Program-made: the position numbers and the translations under genes
Assembly: GCA_003612335.1 (NCBI GenBank)
Contig: RAYO01000012.1
Span: 1 to 64,000 of the forward strand
DNA: 64,000 nt
Source: a bacterium 1xD42-67
GTDB lineage: Bacteria > Bacillota > Clostridia > Oscillospirales > Oscillospiraceae
Direction of reading: 5' to 3'
Shown here: piece after piece, positions 56,225 through 62,886 of the stretch
Position numbering within the stretch: position 1 is the first letter of the stretch
Layout: the number at the start of each line of letters is the position of its first letter
Notes under the pieces: generated by a model
What the model was told of the DNA's origin: nothing
Database searches by the model: none
What the model saw: the letters and a program-made list of their open reading frames with translations, nothing else

Positions 56225-56862
56225 TTAGCCTGAAGCATCTGGCTCTTTACTTCTCGGCTTGTTTTTTATAATAATATATTTATCACCATTTCTTTCGTCA
56301 TCACGATATTCATATATCCATCTGTTCGCTTTAAGTGCGTCCAATATTTCAGCTATCTCATAGGTCTTTTGATAATTTCTACGCCCACCTCCTTTTGAAA
56401 ATATCCCTTTCAGTTCCGAAAGATCCAGTTCATCAAAATGCTTTTTGCAGGTGTCTTCATTTAATGTGGGTATAGCATTATTGAACAGCAAAATCTTTTG
56501 ATTACGGGCGATTACGTCAGATTGAAGCAAAATAGAAAGTAATCAATCATCCAGTGTTATTGCACTGGAAGTAATGGTTCGTATCTGTGCTTCCGCTAAT
56601 GAAATAATTTCTTTCTGTGCCTTTTCTCCATAGCGCGTATAATGGGCGTAAAGATAATCTCTGTCTTCTTTTTGGAAATTATGTGTCAGAATGTACGCAT
56701 TAACGGCATCAGGATACTGCATCCCGACAATGGAAATTCATCAATATGACCATTACGGATTAAAAATTTGAGGAGGGGAAAATAATCGCTACCCTTAATC
56801 TCCTTAAACTCAGAAATCTCTTGGATTTCATTGGTATGGTTTTTTGACCAAATATTTTGTAA
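56225..56862 (-). pseudogene. Remnant of a YobI-like NTPase C-terminus
   Basis: Read on the minus strand, the pieces NIWSKNHTNEIQEISEFKEIKG / YFPLLKFLIRNGHIDE, then (other frame) GMQYPDAVNAYILTHNFQKEDRDYLYAHY, then after an in-frame TGA at about 56545 LLQSDVIARNQKILLFNNAIPTLNEDTCKKHFDEL...YEIAEILDALKANRWIYEYRDDE, form one continuous protein end. At least one frameshift (near 56736) and one nonsense codon break it. The pattern resembles the C-terminus of YobI-like P-loop NTPases; the 5' part is missing. AT-rich compared with the chromosome. Confidence 0.6.
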
Positions 56863-57048
56863 GAACCCGCAAAACCTTGTGGAACAGCGCATTACCCCGC
56901 ATTTCCTGACAACAGACCACCCCAATTACTACGTATTTACTACCAAGGGATGAGCTTTGATACGACGAAACACCAGGAAATGCAGACATACGGTTTTGCG
57001 CCGCCCTTTGAATTACCCTCTAAAATCACATATCGCCTGACTGGATAG
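56863..57048 (+). pseudogene. 3' fragment of an unidentified gene
   Basis: An open stretch on the + strand ending QGMSFDTTKHQEMQTYGFAPPFELPSKITYRLTG-stop, with no start or ribosome site, beginning where the YobI-like remnant stops. It looks like the last 40-60 codons of a gene whose front has been lost. It precedes a parA start in the same direction, as expected for an element or plasmid replication/partition operon. Family unknown. Confidence 0.4.
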
Positions 57049-57094
57049 GCCGTCTTTTCTGCAAAGGAAAGGCGGCTTTTTCTATGCCCGTACA

Positions 57095-57122
57095 TAGCCG
57101 CCTGTTTCGCCGCAGGCGGCTA
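57095..57122 (+). terminator. Hairpin before the parA fragment
   Basis: TAGCCGCCTG and CAGGCGGCTA pair perfectly around TTTCGCCG. No T-run follows; it is more likely a leader hairpin of the parA operon than a terminator. Confidence 0.45.
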
Positions 57123-57147
57123 AATCTACGAAAGGAGGAAACCCCAA

Positions 57148-57210
57148 ATGGCGAAACCAAAAGTGTTGAGTGTAGCAAATCAAAAGGGCGGAGTTGGTAA
57201 TGAAAAGTAA
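57148..57210 (+). pseudogene. parA 5' fragment, cut in the Walker A motif
   Basis: AAAGGAGG, then an ATG at 57148 reading MAKPKVLSVANQKGGVG, the start of a ParA/Soj partition ATPase up to the deviant Walker A (KGGVGKT). After GGVG the frame enters the left inverted repeat of the recombinase trio and stops within four codons. Only the first 17 codons of parA remain here; the rest is not seen nearby. Confidence 0.85.
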
Positions 57211-57225
57211 AAGATTATGGAAAGT
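57183..57225 (+). repeat. Left terminal inverted repeat of RIT
   Basis: Starts AAAGGGCGGAGTTGGTAATG, identical for 20 bases to the reverse complement of the right end; the inner 23 bases differ at 6 positions. The outer 15 bases encode KGGVG of the left parA fragment. Confidence 0.88.
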
Positions 57226-57280
57226 CCCTCCTTAAAAGCCTTGAAGCACAGCAAAAAAGCCGGGAAAGACTTTCCATAAT
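57214..57280 (-). terminator. Subterminal hairpin of RIT
   Basis: ATTATGGAAAGTC (57214-57226) and GACTTTCCATAAT (57268-57280) pair as 13-bp arms just past the stop of the third recombinase. It may end the trio transcript or bind recombinase. Confidence 0.5.
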
Positions 57281-57290
57281 ATAGAGAGGA

Positions 57291-58313
57291 TCACTTTCCG
57301 AGACCTTTCAGCCAGTTCAATAAATCGGAATCTTTTTGCCAGGCCGGAGTCTCCGGTTCTGGGGTAGGGCTGGGATAAGCCATTGTCAGCGCCTGGCGTT
57401 TGAAATGTTCATCGGCGCGGGCATAGATTTCTGTTGTACTCACATCCGCATGACCTAACAGATCGCGGATGTAGATCAAGTTCACGCCGGATTGCAGCAG
57501 ATGCATGGCTTTGCTGTGACGTAAAACATGGGGAGAAACGGCCATCTGCGCCGGAATAGCACCCATCTGTTGAGCGGATTTCACATATTTGTTCAGAATA
57601 TAAGCAATTCCGGCACGGGTAAGTTTTTTTCCGTCCCTGTTTCGGAAGAGAGGGGCCCCGCCGTGCATGGAGAAGCGGCGGTCACATTCCTCCAGATAAG
57701 CCCGCAGCAGCTTTTCAGTCGGAGCCATAATGGGCACGAACCGGGCCTTTCCGCCTTTTCCGGTCAGACGAATTACAGTAGGACTGGAAAGGCGTACATC
57801 TTCAAATTTGAGGTCTGCCAGTTCTTGCACCCGAGCCCCGGTATCATAGAGCAGCGCCAGCATAGCGAGATCACGGCACCCGGCGGCGGTCTGTGGGTCA
57901 GGCAGCGCAAGAATTGCCTGTATCTCGTCCAAGGTGAGGTAGGATACCACCTTTTTCTCCGCACGTTTATTGGGGATCGAGAGGATCTCCTGGCAGTGCG
58001 CCAATAGATGGGGAGCCTCGAACTGCAAATACTTGTAAAACGCATGGATCGCGGCCAGACGGTTATTCCGAGTCCCGGCAGAGCAGCCACGCTCTGTCTC
58101 CAGCCATTGCAAAAAATCCTCAACCAGACGCCTTGTTACTTGCTCCAAGGTCAGCTTTTGCGGATTGAGTTTGCGTTCCTTTTGGCAAAATCGGAGGAAC
58201 AGGGAGAAGGTATCCCGGTACGAGCGGACGGTATTCACGCTGCATCCAGACTGCCCAGGAAGATAGACACCTAAATACCGGCTGAGATGTATGGCAAAAT
58301 CAGTAGGCTTCAA
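57291..58313 (-). CDS. RIT recombinase C (third of trio)
   Basis: A 340-residue tyrosine recombinase. SAM-like N-terminal domain (residues 5-105), then Arg in DTGARVQELADL, Lys in GKGGKARFV, HVLRHSKAMHLL, LGHADVSTTEIYARA with the Tyr nucleophile. The C-terminal 25 residues are Pro-rich then helical. ATGA overlap with the second gene. In RIT elements the three proteins are thought to act together; separate roles are unknown. Confidence 0.92.
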   Translation of the reverse strand: MKPTDFAIHLSRYLGVYLPGQSGCSVNTVRSYRDTFSLFLRFCQKERKLNPQKLTLEQVTRRLVEDFLQWLETERGCSAGTRNNRLAAIHAFYKYLQFEAPHLLAHCQEILSIPNKRAEKKVVSYLTLDEIQAILALPDPQTAAGCRDLAMLALLYDTGARVQELADLKFEDVRLSSPTVIRLTGKGGKARFVPIMAPTEKLLRAYLEECDRRFSMHGGAPLFRNRDGKKLTRAGIAYILNKYVKSAQQMGAIPAQMAVSPHVLRHSKAMHLLQSGVNLIYIRDLLGHADVSTTEIYARADEHFKRQALTMAYPSPTPEPETPAWQKDSDLLNWLKGLGK

Positions 58314-59287
58314 GTGGTTTCACCGCCTGGTATCACATATGCACAGGTGTTTTCTACCTGCCGAACCACATCCGGATAGACCTCTGCCGTCAGGCGAAGA
58401 TAGCGAGAAGTTGCCCGCATGGATTTATGCCCCATAAAAACAGACAGAACTGGCAGCATTGCGGTCAGATCCTCGCCGGTTTCCACCCATTTTTGCAGCG
58501 TATGGACTGCGAATGTATGACGAATATCATGCAGACGCGGCCCATTTCCCTTTCCGTTGTATGGAATACCGGCGTTCCAAAGCAATTTTCGGAATCGTTG
58601 GTAAACGGTGTTCGGGCTGAGGATCGTGCGGTCCGGTGCAGGGAAAAAGAAATCATCGTCACACAGCCAGTAAGCTGTGTTTTCTCGGTGATCACGCAGC
58701 AGTTTCAGCAGGGATCCAGAAAGTGGAATCAGCCTGTCCCGCCCGTTTTTTGCTTCCCGGATCGTGAGGATGCCTTTCTCCAAATCCACATCCCGGCAAA
58801 GGAGCCCCACCGCTTCTGAAACCCGCAGACCACAGCCGTAGAGCAGGCGGAACAGGACCGGCAGTTCCTTATGCAGATCTCTTGCCTGAGCAATGGGCCG
58901 AATGTTATCTGCTGCCTGAAACAGCTTGTCCATCTCAATGTGGGTAAAGATGTGGGGGGTAAAAGAACCCTGGTTCCAATGGCAGCTGGGCAGCATACAG
59001 ACTTGGTGTCCGGTCAATTCCAGATATTTGCTGAACTGATTCAGTACACTGACACGATGCAGCCGACTTTTTGCCGCCTCTCCATCTCTGGGAGATGTCC
59101 AATCCATAGCCAGTTCTCTGGTCAGGACAGGAGCTGTGAGGCTGTACTCTTCCGTAAAGCGGCAGAACCGTTGGAGGATTTTGGCTTCTGTATAGTATTT
59201 GTAGCCCTGAGCCCGTTTGAACGCAACAAAATCATCCGCCAACGGAGCGAAAACACCGCTCATGGTAATGGGTGTGACAGTGATCAT
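58310..59287 (-). CDS. RIT recombinase B (second of trio)
   Basis: A 325-residue tyrosine recombinase starting MITVTPITMSG at 59287, right after the stop of the first gene; the longer frame is a shadow of that gene. Catalytic residues: Arg in YGCGLRVSEAVGL, Lys in EAKNGRDRLIPL, DIRHTFAVHTL, MGHKSMRATSRYLRL with Tyr. The N-terminal domain (FVAFKRAQGYKYYTEAKILQRFCRF) is typical of the middle RIT protein. Confidence 0.92.
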   Translation of the reverse strand: MITVTPITMSGVFAPLADDFVAFKRAQGYKYYTEAKILQRFCRFTEEYSLTAPVLTRELAMDWTSPRDGEAAKSRLHRVSVLNQFSKYLELTGHQVCMLPSCHWNQGSFTPHIFTHIEMDKLFQAADNIRPIAQARDLHKELPVLFRLLYGCGLRVSEAVGLLCRDVDLEKGILTIREAKNGRDRLIPLSGSLLKLLRDHRENTAYWLCDDDFFFPAPDRTILSPNTVYQRFRKLLWNAGIPYNGKGNGPRLHDIRHTFAVHTLQKWVETGEDLTAMLPVLSVFMGHKSMRATSRYLRLTAEVYPDVVRQVENTCAYVIPGGETT

Positions 59288-59288
59288 C

Positions 59289-60488
59289 TCACACCTCCAA
59301 TGCGCAGCGGCGCAGCTGGTCAATCCCAATGGAGAGGTAAACAGCGGTAGTCTCGGTATTGGCATGGCCCAAAATCTCCGAAATAACAGGCAACGGAACA
59401 TTTTCTTCCAACAGCCTGCTGGCCAGACTGTGCCGCAGAGAATGCGGCCCACGCTTTTTCCCTTGAACTGTCAATCCGGCTTTATGGATATACTCTGAAA
59501 CGATCCTGTAGAGAGAACTGGGATTGAAGTCCTTGAATGGATATTTATGACTGAGAAAAACAGTGTTGCTGCCAGAGACAGGCCGCCCAAATTTCAGATA
59601 GTCAATCACCGCCAATCCAACATCCTCCAACAGTGGCAGCGTCAGGGGTCTGCCGGTTTTGTGCTGGGTCAGGGTGAGGCGATTGTGTTCCCAGTCAAAA
59701 TTTTCAAAGCGCAGTCCGCTGACATCCCCGGTACGAAGCCCAAGACGGGTGATCAACAGCAGGATTGCGTAATTGCGTTTGCCTACCGGATTATTCCAGT
59801 CAACCATACCAAGGATTTTCATAACATCATCGTAGGAATACGCAGAAGGGATGCGGGCCCGCTTGTCGTAGTGAACATTGGGCGCAAAGCTGGCCAGATT
59901 CTGCGGGTGGTAATCATTCTGCCAGCAGAATTCCATGAACTGCCTCACAGTCCGCATCATATGGTCCTTGCTTTGGTTGCTGAATGCACTGATATACCGC
60001 AGATAGCCTTGGATATGCTCGCCTGTGATCTTGGGAATTGTGTCTATCTCCCGGCTGGTCAGGTAGTGAAAAAATCGCTCCAGGTACAGCTCAACCGTTC
60101 CCATGTTCCGTTCCACAATACCAACAAAGCGACGATGCTCCAGAAACTCATCCGTTGCTTTTTGGAATCCCTCCGGTATGCGGTAGCTTCGGTTCCTGTG
60201 CCGCATCATAAACGTACCATGCAGCTGCACTTCAGACAGCATCGTCAGATCTTGCAGCCGCCCCTGGTTCTCACGGCTTAATGTTCCATCCGACTTGAAT
60301 CCGTAGTGTTCCTCAATAAAGCGAATTCCGATGTCCATGCTGTAATCGCTGATTCCCTGCTGTGCCATAAATTTTACAAGTTGATTGGTGGTGCTGTTAA
60401 ATTGCTGAATCTTTCCCTTGCTATACCCGTTTTCTTCCAACCTTTGCCTGACTTGTCCGATAGTCCTGCTGATAGCCATTTCCTGCAT
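59289..60488 (-). CDS. RIT recombinase A (first of trio)
   Basis: A 399-residue tyrosine recombinase, the longest of the three, with an extra N-terminal helical segment (residues 1-110) before the core-binding domain. Arg in RLGLRTGDVSGL, Lys in QHKTGRPLTLP, HSLRHSLASRLL, LGHANTETTAVYLSI with Tyr. A ribosome site (GGAGG) precedes the start. It is transcribed first, from within 105 bases of the right terminal repeat. Confidence 0.92.
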   Translation of the reverse strand: MQEMAISRTIGQVRQRLEENGYSKGKIQQFNSTTNQLVKFMAQQGISDYSMDIGIRFIEEHYGFKSDGTLSRENQGRLQDLTMLSEVQLHGTFMMRHRNRSYRIPEGFQKATDEFLEHRRFVGIVERNMGTVELYLERFFHYLTSREIDTIPKITGEHIQGYLRYISAFSNQSKDHMMRTVRQFMEFCWQNDYHPQNLASFAPNVHYDKRARIPSAYSYDDVMKILGMVDWNNPVGKRNYAILLLITRLGLRTGDVSGLRFENFDWEHNRLTLTQHKTGRPLTLPLLEDVGLAVIDYLKFGRPVSGSNTVFLSHKYPFKDFNPSSLYRIVSEYIHKAGLTVQGKKRGPHSLRHSLASRLLEENVPLPVISEILGHANTETTAVYLSIGIDQLRRCALEV

Positions 60489-60589
60489 TTCAATACCTCC
60501 AAAATGTTTTGCCTCTCGGCTTCCTCCATTTTGCGGTATTATGCTAAGTTATTCAACAAAATCCCCTTGATTCCTAGCCTTTTTATCAC

Positions 60590-60661
60590 TCAACTTTTCA
60601 TAATTACTTTCTTTCCATTACCAACTCCGCCCTTTAAGTTGAGTATCACGGTTGTCCTCAT
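60590..60661 (-). pseudogene. Second parA 5' fragment, cut in the Walker A motif
   Basis: On the minus strand an ATG at 60661, 18 bases after the helicase stop, reads MRTTVILNLKGGVG, the start of a different ParA/Soj ATPase. After GGVG it runs into the right inverted repeat of the RIT and stops (NGKKVIMKS-stop). The remainder of this parA, expected at the other end of a simple insertion, is not there. Confidence 0.83.
60593..60635 (-). repeat. Right terminal inverted repeat of RIT
   Basis: Mirror of the left repeat (37/43 identical). The outer bases encode KGGVG of the right parA fragment on the minus strand. Confidence 0.88.
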
Positions 60662-60679: not shown

Positions 60680-62029
60680 TTATGTGTTCGGCGCTGCGCC
60701 GATGTGGTCGTACTCCTCCTCCCAGGGCAGCGGCTCACTGCCAGGGAGCTCATAGAATGACTGCTGCTTGTACTCAGGTTCCTCGCGCTTGGATTTTATC
60801 AGACCGTTTGTATCCACCCGAAACGTCTGGGTCTCCCCGTTGAACAGCAGGGGCACCCGTCCTGTCTCGCCCTCTTTGTTTTTTTCTACAGCCAGAATAC
60901 GGCGGCTGCGCAGCCGCCCAGGCTCCTCCCGATAAACAAACATCACAATATCGGCATCCTGTTCGATCTGACCGGAGGAACGCAGGGAAGCCAGGGTAGG
61001 CGGCTTAACCTTTCCGCTCTCAGGGCGGGAGAGCTGAGAGAGGGCAACTACAGTCACTCCGGTATCCTGGGCGAAACGGTGCAGGGCCTTGGAGATGTAT
61101 GTAGCCTGCTCAAATTCCGTCCGGCCTGGAGCTTGGATCAGGGTCAGGTAGTCGATGTATATGACTTCAAATCGCTTGGCCCTGGTGTAAGAGGCGATAT
61201 CCTCCACCGTCATGCTGGAGGAGCGGATCAAAGACAGCCGACGGCTGCGGACCTTCTCTGACTTGCACGCCAGCAGATCATAGTCTCTTTCTGTCAATGC
61301 CCTATGTTTTATGCGGACCCCACTCACCTGAGCCGCTGAGGAGAACACACGGTTAAAAAGCTTTGAATTTTTCGTTTCCAGTGAAAAGAACCCCACCCGC
61401 AAGCTTCTGGCCTGATGATAGGCCATAGACAGTGCCAGGGCTGTCTTTCCGTCCGAGGGGTAGCCACCCAGAACAACGTAGTCGCTGGCCTCAGCGGTGA
61501 GCCCGGAATCCAGGAAATCAATGCCCCAGGGCACATACTGCGGGGTGCGCTCCAGTTCCTCATAGAAATTGAGGATGCCCTGTTCCATGGACAGGCACTC
61601 TACCCCAGGACTGTCCGCTATCAGGCCATTGAGCCTCCCTACAATCTCCCGCACCTGCTCCATTGTGACAGTCCCCTCAGAAATCAGCTCCAGACCAACG
61701 CTCTGGGCCGCGCGTACACCGGCCTGCTCCCGCACAATGGCCATCCACTCCCGGAGATTTGCTGTTGTGGGAGTTTCATCCATCACCCTGAGCAGATATT
61801 GACGTCGCTCGGGACTGGGCGCTTCCATTTTATGCAGCACTGTCACTGGGTCGATCTTTTCGTCGGACAGATACAGTTCCCGGATTGCCAGAAACACCTC
61901 CCGCCCTGTGGGATCGGTAAAATCCTCTAGACGAAGGACGGTCACAACGTCACCCACCGTGTTTGCGTCAATCAGCATAGCCCCTAACACGCTACTTTGA
62001 GCAAGTAAATAATCTGGCATCAGTCCCAC
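60680..62029 (-). CDS. DnaB-like replicative helicase
   Basis: A 449-residue helicase of the DnaB family that unwinds DNA at forks. N-terminal domain AQSSVLGAMLIDANTVGDVVTVLRLEDF...; Walker A GYPSDGKTALALSMAYHQ near residue 190; VIYIDYLTLIQAPG (Walker B); ALSQLSRPESGKVKPPTLASLRSSGQIEQDADIVMFVYRE near the C-terminus, all typical. It overlaps the initiator gene by 10 bases and is followed at once by parA. The element probably replicates autonomously; the host copy is expected elsewhere. Confidence 0.92.
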   Translation of the reverse strand: MGLMPDYLLAQSSVLGAMLIDANTVGDVVTVLRLEDFTDPTGREVFLAIRELYLSDEKIDPVTVLHKMEAPSPERRQYLLRVMDETPTTANLREWMAIVREQAGVRAAQSVGLELISEGTVTMEQVREIVGRLNGLIADSPGVECLSMEQGILNFYEELERTPQYVPWGIDFLDSGLTAEASDYVVLGGYPSDGKTALALSMAYHQARSLRVGFFSLETKNSKLFNRVFSSAAQVSGVRIKHRALTERDYDLLACKSEKVRSRRLSLIRSSSMTVEDIASYTRAKRFEVIYIDYLTLIQAPGRTEFEQATYISKALHRFAQDTGVTVVALSQLSRPESGKVKPPTLASLRSSGQIEQDADIVMFVYREEPGRLRSRRILAVEKNKEGETGRVPLLFNGETQTFRVDTNGLIKSKREEPEYKQQSFYELPGSEPLPWEEEYDHIGAAPNT

Positions 62030-62886
62030 CCAAACCTTTCCGGCCTTATGGCCTCAGTTGCCCCCAAAGCTGGGAGCTTCTCCTCGTCCTCCCAGCGCCG
62101 GCCGTTGATCCAGGAGGCGGGGTAGGGAATACCTTGGCCGTCCTCCTCCCGAATCTTCCGCTGCCACTCAGGGCTGGCCAGTTGGCGCTGGAGGGCATGG
62201 CCCATCACCACCAGCAGCCTGTCATCCGGATGCAGTGAGTCCCAAGCGCGTATCGCTGCCTGTTTGGACTTCTTGACGGGGTACATCCGCCAGAAGCCCT
62301 CAAACCGCTCCGGCTTCCAATCGGGCGCCGCCTTTGCTGCTCGGCCCCGCTTTGGCTTTCCTGAGCCCGCCGCCCCCTGGGGGGCTTTGGGGGGATCATC
62401 TGTTAGGCTGTTATCTGGGTTTATATCTGGTAATGGTGTCCCCGTTTGGTGAAATGATTGTCCCCGTTCCGTGTTTTGCATTTCACCGTTTGGTGAAATG
62501 CATCCAGCCGTTTCTGTGGCGCACTCTGCAAAATAGGCCATCGCTTTGTCGGAGAGGGAATACCAGCTTGTCCTGTCCCGCTTGTCCTGGTTGAAGCAGC
62601 CTGTCAGAAGCAGGCTGTTCTTCTTGCAGGCGGAAATGATACGCTCAATCTGCCGTCTGCTCCAGTACGGGTGCGCCTCACAGAAAGCGGCCAGGGAGTT
62701 GAATGTCCAGTATCTCCCCTCGTAAAAATTCTTCTCATAAGCCTTGTTATGCTTGAGCCAAAAATAGATGTTATGCAGGAAAACAGCGACGTCTACCCCA
62801 TAGGTCTGAGCCAGCACAGGATTAAAATGATGGTCTGGTATATTCTTCACCCCCATTCTTGGTGTAGCTTTTAGCACTGAACTCAT
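62020..62886 (-). CDS. HTH replication protein, DnaD/initiator-like
   Basis: A 288-residue protein. N-terminal winged helix (FNPVLAQTYGVDVAVFLHNIYFWL...YWTFNSLAAFCEAHPYWSRRQIERIISACKKNSLLL), a Pro/Ala/Gly linker with basic KPKRGRAAKA, and a C-terminal block (FEGFWRMYPVKKSKQAAIRAW...YPASWINGRRWED) common at the end of phage and element replication proteins that load helicases. Directly upstream of the DnaB-like helicase, which supports a helicase-loading or initiator role. Confidence 0.8.
   Translation of the reverse strand: MSSVLKATPRMGVKNIPDHHFNPVLAQTYGVDVAVFLHNIYFWLKHNKAYEKNFYEGRYWTFNSLAAFCEAHPYWSRRQIERIISACKKNSLLLTGCFNQDKRDRTSWYSLSDKAMAYFAECATETAGCISPNGEMQNTERGQSFHQTGTPLPDINPDNSLTDDPPKAPQGAAGSGKPKRGRAAKAAPDWKPERFEGFWRMYPVKKSKQAAIRAWDSLHPDDRLLVVMGHALQRQLASPEWQRKIREEDGQGIPYPASWINGRRWEDEEKLPALGATEAIRPERFGWD

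Follow-up and report, generated by a model that had tools for sequence, protein, structure and literature searches.

How does a single mobile element come to lie between the starts of two different parA genes that break at the same codon? The question is raised by the 64,000-nucleotide stretch analysed here (the window; contig RAYO01000012.1 of the Oscillospiraceae bacterium 1xD42-67), in which a recombinase in trio (RIT) element is flanked by two different ParA starts, both cut at the same P-loop codon next to the element's ends. An earlier note had described this arrangement, which the window sequence confirms, and had proposed that the element targets the highly conserved P-loop codons. Comparison with uninterrupted alleles and with other RIT ends supports the parA P-loop as the target of the clade to which the window element belongs. 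What the note missed is that a single insertion would not by itself produce two different parA starts. The locus probably reflects site-specific RIT integration into ParA Walker A codons, followed by a second integration through a spare attachment site, a reading derived from sequence comparison.

The element at 57198-60620 is a RIT. It carries three adjacent tyrosine recombinase genes in the order A-B-C, joined closely (a 4-nt overlap of ritB and ritC, and a 1-nt gap between ritA and ritB with the ritB start placed by eye), and these three genes alone fill the space between its ends. In a class-to-class comparison each of RitA, RitB and RitC finds its best match in its own class of the pHG1 trio, and HSLR, HDIR and HVLR with a downstream Y are visible in the three sequences as candidate catalytic residues of the R-H-R-Y set. 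The four core genes of SE or GInt elements (Tfp/GinC, Srap/GinD) are not present, although no search with SE or GInt models was made. At 3423 bp the element has the length and the terminal inverted repeats of RITs of about 3.5 kb: the repeat is 43 nt long (arms 57183-57225 and 60593-60635, 86% complementary), its outer part is AAAGGGCGGAGTTGG in both arms, and 28 of the 43 nt lie inside the element.

Uninterrupted relatives separate element from target. The parA1 allele of genome G077 agrees with the window at all 96 nt up to the end of AAGGGCGGAGTTGG, beyond which it has CAAAAGCACG in place of the element end. Because the whole of AAGGGCGGAGTTGG runs on uninterrupted in this allele, the KGGVG codons at parA1 are target. 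The earlier note had equated the outermost bases of the inverted repeat with these codons; the repeat does include them, but as flanking target outside the element proper, and the possibility it raised against itself, that uninterrupted relatives would reveal the codons as element-borne, was resolved in its favour at parA1. For parA2, two uninterrupted relatives in IMG/VR (L209 and L211) show no difference from the window over 113 and 106 nt, respectively, ending at GGAGT; from there they continue with AGC CAAGACGG and the window with TGG TAATGG. The L211 relative is a 255-aa ParA (PF13614), and behind it stands a ParB-like gene whose PF02195 match lies below the cut-off. Both relatives read AAGGGCGGAGTAGC, so the last TGG of the parA2 junction is absent from known alleles. 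The parA2 spacer thus differs from both empty alleles in the last 3 of its 6 nt, AGTAGC in the relatives versus AGTTGG, the parA1 spacer, in the window. AGTTGG at parA2 is the expected residue of a 6-bp exchange region if the element moved from parA1 to parA2; a parA2 allele already carrying AGTTGG before the event would also account for it. Among 300 family genomes the only close copy of the parA2 start was that of the window's own genome.

Further evidence for the target comes from the GTDB collection, which was scanned with a pattern of RIT ends that contained no P-loop bases; the scan returned 79 loci with 85 ends. A script placed Rit proteins near the end in 13 of the 79 loci; many of the others look like chance and some are truncated. 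parA P-loop codons directly precede four of the 85 ends, reading LISVTNQKGGVG at L109 and L137, VIAIVNQKGGVT at L133 and VIAIANQKGGAG at L134. Together with the two window ends, all six carry KGGVG, KGGVT or KGGAG codons in identical phase, and by eye these four alone resemble the window ends beyond the boxes. Their flanks share 18 to 33 of 40 nt pairwise (L109 and L137 are close), so the parA-type ends lie in different parA genes or alleles. Window-like Rit genes accompany only L137 (RitC 73%). The arrangement is not due to chance, because two ParA starts break at the same codon beside RIT ends in the window and four unanchored ends do likewise. These six ends and the G077 allele support P-loop targeting for this clade; as a rule for RIT elements at large the proposal of the earlier note does not extend to other clades, which sit in other conserved codons.

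A scan of 400 family genomes allowing up to two mismatches found nine places, four of which are the known P-loop ends. A looser P-loop-anchored scan gave 20 loci, of which the window's own contig is real and the other 19 were judged chance from translation; L031 was likewise judged chance. Three further ParA contigs came from P-loop-anchored scans, in which the anchoring favours a P-loop result. A RitA search of genome contigs gave 11 pattern stretches, none confirmed, and searches of viral contigs gave five RitC stretches, none confirmed, and no RitB stretch. In plasmid and phage sequences, a DNA search with the element returned one partial record each, and searches with the right flank and with L137 returned none.

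RIT relatives show what the window lacks. Their layout is target5'-(6 bp)-RIT-(6 bp')-20-bp palindrome-(6 bp)-target3', in which the palindrome, P, consists of two end-like boxes and lies on one side of the RIT between two 6-bp spacers. A second, different RIT of the same genome (L037; G000, contig 17) illustrates it: a 3512-bp insert in a PAPS reductase gene reads target-CAAGGA-RIT-TCTTTT-TTATGGAAAGCTTTCCATAA-CAAGGA-target, with a perfect 6-bp repeat, and its joined flanks restore VFVSFSGGKDSTVLLDL. A script found a candidate layout in 20 of 34 RIT loci, 14 of them solid or likely; 18 of the 20 have a P that is palindromic to 9/10 or better, and the outer spacers are identical in ten (L037, L069, L087, L103, L115, L295, L297, L300, L301 and L304). 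The RIT copy of pHG1 has the same arrangement. In the ParA, PAPS and IS21 insertions the direction of the RIT varies but the position of P, 3' of the target gene, does not; at L036 P lies, by our reading, apparently on the 5' side. The window contains no spacer-palindrome-spacer with a 6-bp direct repeat, a second parA standing in its place, and elsewhere in its genome such a palindrome occurs on contig 17 only.

The layout predicts a ParA junction of the form palindrome-NGTNGG-NAARASNAC. A scan of IMG/VR for it gave four matches, two of them real (L307 and L308), both reading CCAACT-TTATGTGAAGCTTCACATAA-TGTCGG-ParA 3' half. The corresponding scan for the ParA 5' junction gave three matches, all real: the window's own contig, L311 with a partial RitC, and L312, which is a neighbouring piece of L308's contig. 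The contig of L312 and L308 holds a complete 3456-bp insertion whose RitA, RitB and RitC are 41%, 56% and 56% identical to those of the window, whose joined flanks restore parA over 44 protein letters in one frame, and which has the layout with the palindrome. Each of its three spacers (TGTGGG, inner AGTTGG and TGTCGG) can encode V-G of the P-loop, as expected if the RIT moves from parA to parA. Since both scans were anchored on the P-loop, we do not count them as unbiased.

Element ends, target codons, 6-bp spacers and the relatives' palindrome between spacers on the target-3' side were all established by comparison, and they accommodate a two-step origin of the locus. In a circular RIT, two equivalent attachment sites (P-spacer-end) would lie inverted on either side of P, one of which would be used for integration while the other is left intact. 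The element would first have entered parA1, which is on the forward strand and in the integrative element ICE1; its spare site (A-end-spacer-P) would then have reacted with the parA2 P-loop, carried by a second integrative element, yielding parA1-5'/RIT/inverted parA2-5' and carrying the spacer AGTTGG into parA2. With parA1 and parA2 convergent on one molecule, the reaction would delete P and both parA 3' halves, and the locus fits a deletion between two convergent parA genes. A simple single insertion was rejected, as it would leave a parA 3' half on one side. Neither 3' half was found in the genome, where PF13614 gave eight matches, each with a P-loop of its own, and where the parA2-parB stretch of L211 had no counterpart other than the window junction and 179 bp on contig 55 (a parB-like gene, 79% identical, in a different setting). 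The left flank comprises the first 350 bp of one integrative element, whose terminus lies at 56850. To the right of the RIT lies the replication part of a different integrative element, which has a tyrosine integrase at about 70.7-71.9 kb of the contig; by eye, chromosomal genes appear to start again near 82 kb.

Table 1. Features of the RIT element and its flanks in the window
Feature	Position	Strand	Basis or remark
RIT element proper	57198-60620		3423 bp; ends set by comparison with uninterrupted parA relatives
ritC, tyrosine recombinase, 340 aa	57291..58313	-	PF00589; 47% to RitC of pHG1
ritB, tyrosine recombinase	58310..59287	-	PF00589; 40% to RitB of pHG1; ATG at 59287 by eye
ritA, tyrosine recombinase, 399 aa	59289..60488	-	PF00589; 33.5% to RitA of pHG1
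C-end of RIT, TAATGAAAAG-N7-TTATGGAAAG	57198..57224	+	
A-end of RIT, TAATGGAAAG-N7-TTATGAAAAG	60594..60620	-	
ICE1 left end up to junction	56850..57197	+	homology to G077, G138 and own contig C73 starts at 56850 in each
parA1 5' fragment, MAKPKVLSVANQKGGVG	ATG 57148 to 57197, then TAATGAAAAG from 57198	+	uninterrupted allele L178 (G077)
6-bp spacer AGTTGG, parA1 side	57192..57197	+	native in G077 parA1 allele
6-bp spacer AGTTGG, parA2 side	60621..60626	-	AGTAGC in both uninterrupted parA2 relatives
parA2 5' fragment including spacer, MRTTVILNLKGGVG	60621..60661 (ATG 60661), then TAATGGAAAG from 60620 downwards	-	uninterrupted relative in L211
dnaB-like helicase, upstream of parA2	60680..62029	-	PF03796, PF00772

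Beyond parA2, window positions 60680-62084 compare unevenly with L211: the flanking stretches are 94-95% identical and the DnaB between them 43% at the protein level, so that the helicase gene seems to have been swapped relative to L211.

Several points weigh against this account. All support is comparative and no transposition was seen; the window itself is without P, so the second step has to be inferred, and the reciprocal junction does not occur in the assembly. For parA2, the alleles compared are those of relatives. The grouping of six ends out of six into one clade by end likeness was made after the ends had been seen. Of the four unanchored parA ends, L133 and L109 are end fragments, L134 is a relic with, by eye, a ParB-like gene behind it, and L137 is cut by its contig; the sole complete ParA insertion came from a P-loop-anchored scan. 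Five of the mismatch matches (L158, L159, L162, L164 and L165) lie away from P-loops; none of the five has a Rit protein in its locus. With respect to the layout, 13 of the 34 loci failed the scan and one could not be tested, six of the 20 calls are doubtful (L033, L042, L046, L296, L302 and L303), and the outer spacers agree in only ten. As a control, 400 random stretches of 380 bp were taken from 20 of the loci; 11 of them contained a palindrome of at least 9/10 with spacer, a count in which true sites were included and a matching far end was not demanded. The target-5' spacer of L305 looks native by our reading, unlike that of parA2 in the window, so any strand rule is tentative.

As to the five matches away from P-loops, L159 and L164 carry RIT-like end sequences and are perhaps relics of another subtype.

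Among other routes to the same structure, homologous recombination deserves most attention: two RIT copies, one normally inserted in parA1 and the other, oppositely oriented, in parA2, would have exchanged their flanks by a crossover within the RITs. Both orientations relative to the target do occur, and RITs with inverted homologous flanks exist at L040 (3623-6174 and 9208-11759, 2559 bp at 92%) and L043 (214 bp at 98.6%), but a DNA search of the assembly finds one copy of the window RIT only, and the missing 3' halves and the restriction of the palindrome to contig 17 speak against it as well; we regard this route as unlikely. Still less probable is an assembly join, by which two copies in one population were collapsed and their flanks misjoined inside the RIT. 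The genome is a draft of 120 contigs, and L120 ends in 141 identical inverted nt, a possible assembler product; against this, no contig with the other flanks was found and the window's contig runs for 166 kb. An identical IMG/VR contig probably represents the same assembly and so gives no independent proof. That each end carries its own parA-like start, KGGVG codons included, is scarcely credible: the inverted repeat does include the codons, but the G077 allele, where they run on uninterrupted, rules this out for parA1, other insertions have other codons at that place, and at parA2 the element could have brought in no more than the last 3 nt.

With its inverted flanks, L040 is perhaps another double-target fusion. 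The RIT ends at L041 and L044 are preceded by AAGGGCGC or AATGGCGC, which also occur at L040 and which we take to be a possible transfer-origin site.

Site-specific integration at conserved codons appears to extend beyond parA, as 6-bp direct repeats and restored open reading frames were found in other RIT clades. Flanks were joined over about 300 nt per side where available and a Pfam match across the junction was sought. A long spanning open reading frame with a Pfam match was restored for PAPS reductase (L037 and L115, SGG/KDS, the slash marking the junction), a group II intron reverse transcriptase (L297, GTPQG/GVISP), a tyrosine recombinase (L301, HDM/RHVFAT), a zincin (L304, HEL/GHATGH) and an IS66 transposase (L305, RPQAI/TRKNW). 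L306 is nearly identical to L297 and hence not independent; the Pfam match is that of L297. An IS21-like KGKVERFF at L069 has a weak Pfam match below the cut-off, and its clade mates have KGKIER, HGKIEA and RGKIER on the 3' side; at L087 the longest joined frame found by the script is not that of RGKIERFF, which comes from the 3' side only. In pHG1 (L295) the joined flanks restore PSTTE/RYLGY with no Pfam match, which we read as the tyrosine region of a recombinase. L035 restores a long frame with no Pfam match, L296 and L103 each lack one flank, and the flank present at L296 ends in a peptidase M23 match. LYRLMTTTP, found at L117, L081, L098, L118 and L126, may be VirB4-like, and we take the motifs hit by these clades to be catalytic in their families. 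No recognisable target emerged in eight of the 20 joined loci (L033, L042, L043, L046, L300, L302, L303 and, for its longest frame, L087).

The target follows the RitC tree, which has 31 rows (L311 was too short to include). ParA (three rows) and PAPS (four) targets require one change each, with support of 96/92 and 97/92; reverse transcriptase (two) requires one, IS21 (four) two and tyrosine recombinase (two) two. With 12 labels, unknown included, the tree needs 13 changes versus a shuffled mean of 20.1, and none of 200 shuffles reached so small a number. Long branches occur in several rows, however, and clustering of this kind is aided by near-copies. From these comparisons we infer that every RIT clade has come to use, as its attB, a stretch of conserved and often catalytic codons in genes of mobile elements. 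A 320-bp insertion at L081 (3931-4251, reverse strand) has RIT ends and palindrome but nothing that matches a Rit protein; it may be a non-autonomous RIT, and the gene it occupies is of the kind that holds the full RIT of L117.

The parA P-loop and the conserved codons of other mobile-element genes together suggest a targeting rule for the RIT family. Tentatively, and with a joint probability that we place somewhat below even, RITs may be active-site parasites of mobile elements, each clade attaching at codons that its victims can hardly change (the ParA Walker A motif, the PP-loop of PAPS reductase, TPQGG of reverse transcriptase, the transposase E motif, HxxR or Y of tyrosine recombinases and HExxH of a zincin), with the three recombinases perhaps serving three kinds of half-site, at element end, palindrome and target. 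Should an integrated RIT retain another attachment site, in inverted orientation, on its palindrome side, it could join two victims at these codons, deleting or fusing replicons, which would provide a route to the fusion or deletion of two mobile elements at conserved codons. Such a rule, if true, would also account for RITs inside genes of plasmids, integrative and conjugative elements and transposons, and targets that can hardly change would account for a wide host range. With attachment sites defined down to the codon, such a rule would open RIT mobility to direct tests.

No target rule for RITs was found in the literature searched, whose coverage is incomplete, and an earlier description is possible. 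Inteins and group I introns likewise have highly conserved catalytic codons as targets; they are spliced from protein or RNA and moved by homing nucleases, whereas RITs interrupt the gene. The coupling sequences of Tn916-type elements are 6-bp sequences carried from donor to target, as RIT spacers would be, although Tn916 uses one integrase with Xis and has broad targets, unlike RITs. The RITs of Cupriavidus (pHG1, NC_005241; CH34) have the ritA-ritB-ritC order, the length of about 3.5 kb and the terminal inverted repeat seen in the window. The parts consulted of the published accounts describe RITs as abundant in pHG1 (PMC3414803), as inactivating radC and an IS66 tnpA in CH34 (PMC2864759), and as residing in a transposase gene and in radC, with an overlapping palindrome in the inverted repeat (PMC3414803); those parts of the two accounts mention no target motif, 6-bp spacer, attachment role of the palindrome or ParA clade. 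In Table 1 of a 2023 paper (PMC10214605) both the target specificity and the empty site of RIT are marked NT (not tested), and its consulted sections know of no laboratory transposition of RIT. In the portions consulted of PMC10214605 and PMC5385486, SE and GInt elements resemble RITs in using several tyrosine recombinases and inverted repeats; SE elements have a 6-bp spacer as fingerprint and footprint, like the RIT spacers here, and GInt elements a repeated target gene, ssb. Unlike RITs, both have four core genes, and those portions describe no comparable palindrome. Tn554, which is named in PMC3414803 and PMC10214605 and uses TnpA, TnpB and TnpC, likewise has 6-bp sequences that pass from donor to target.

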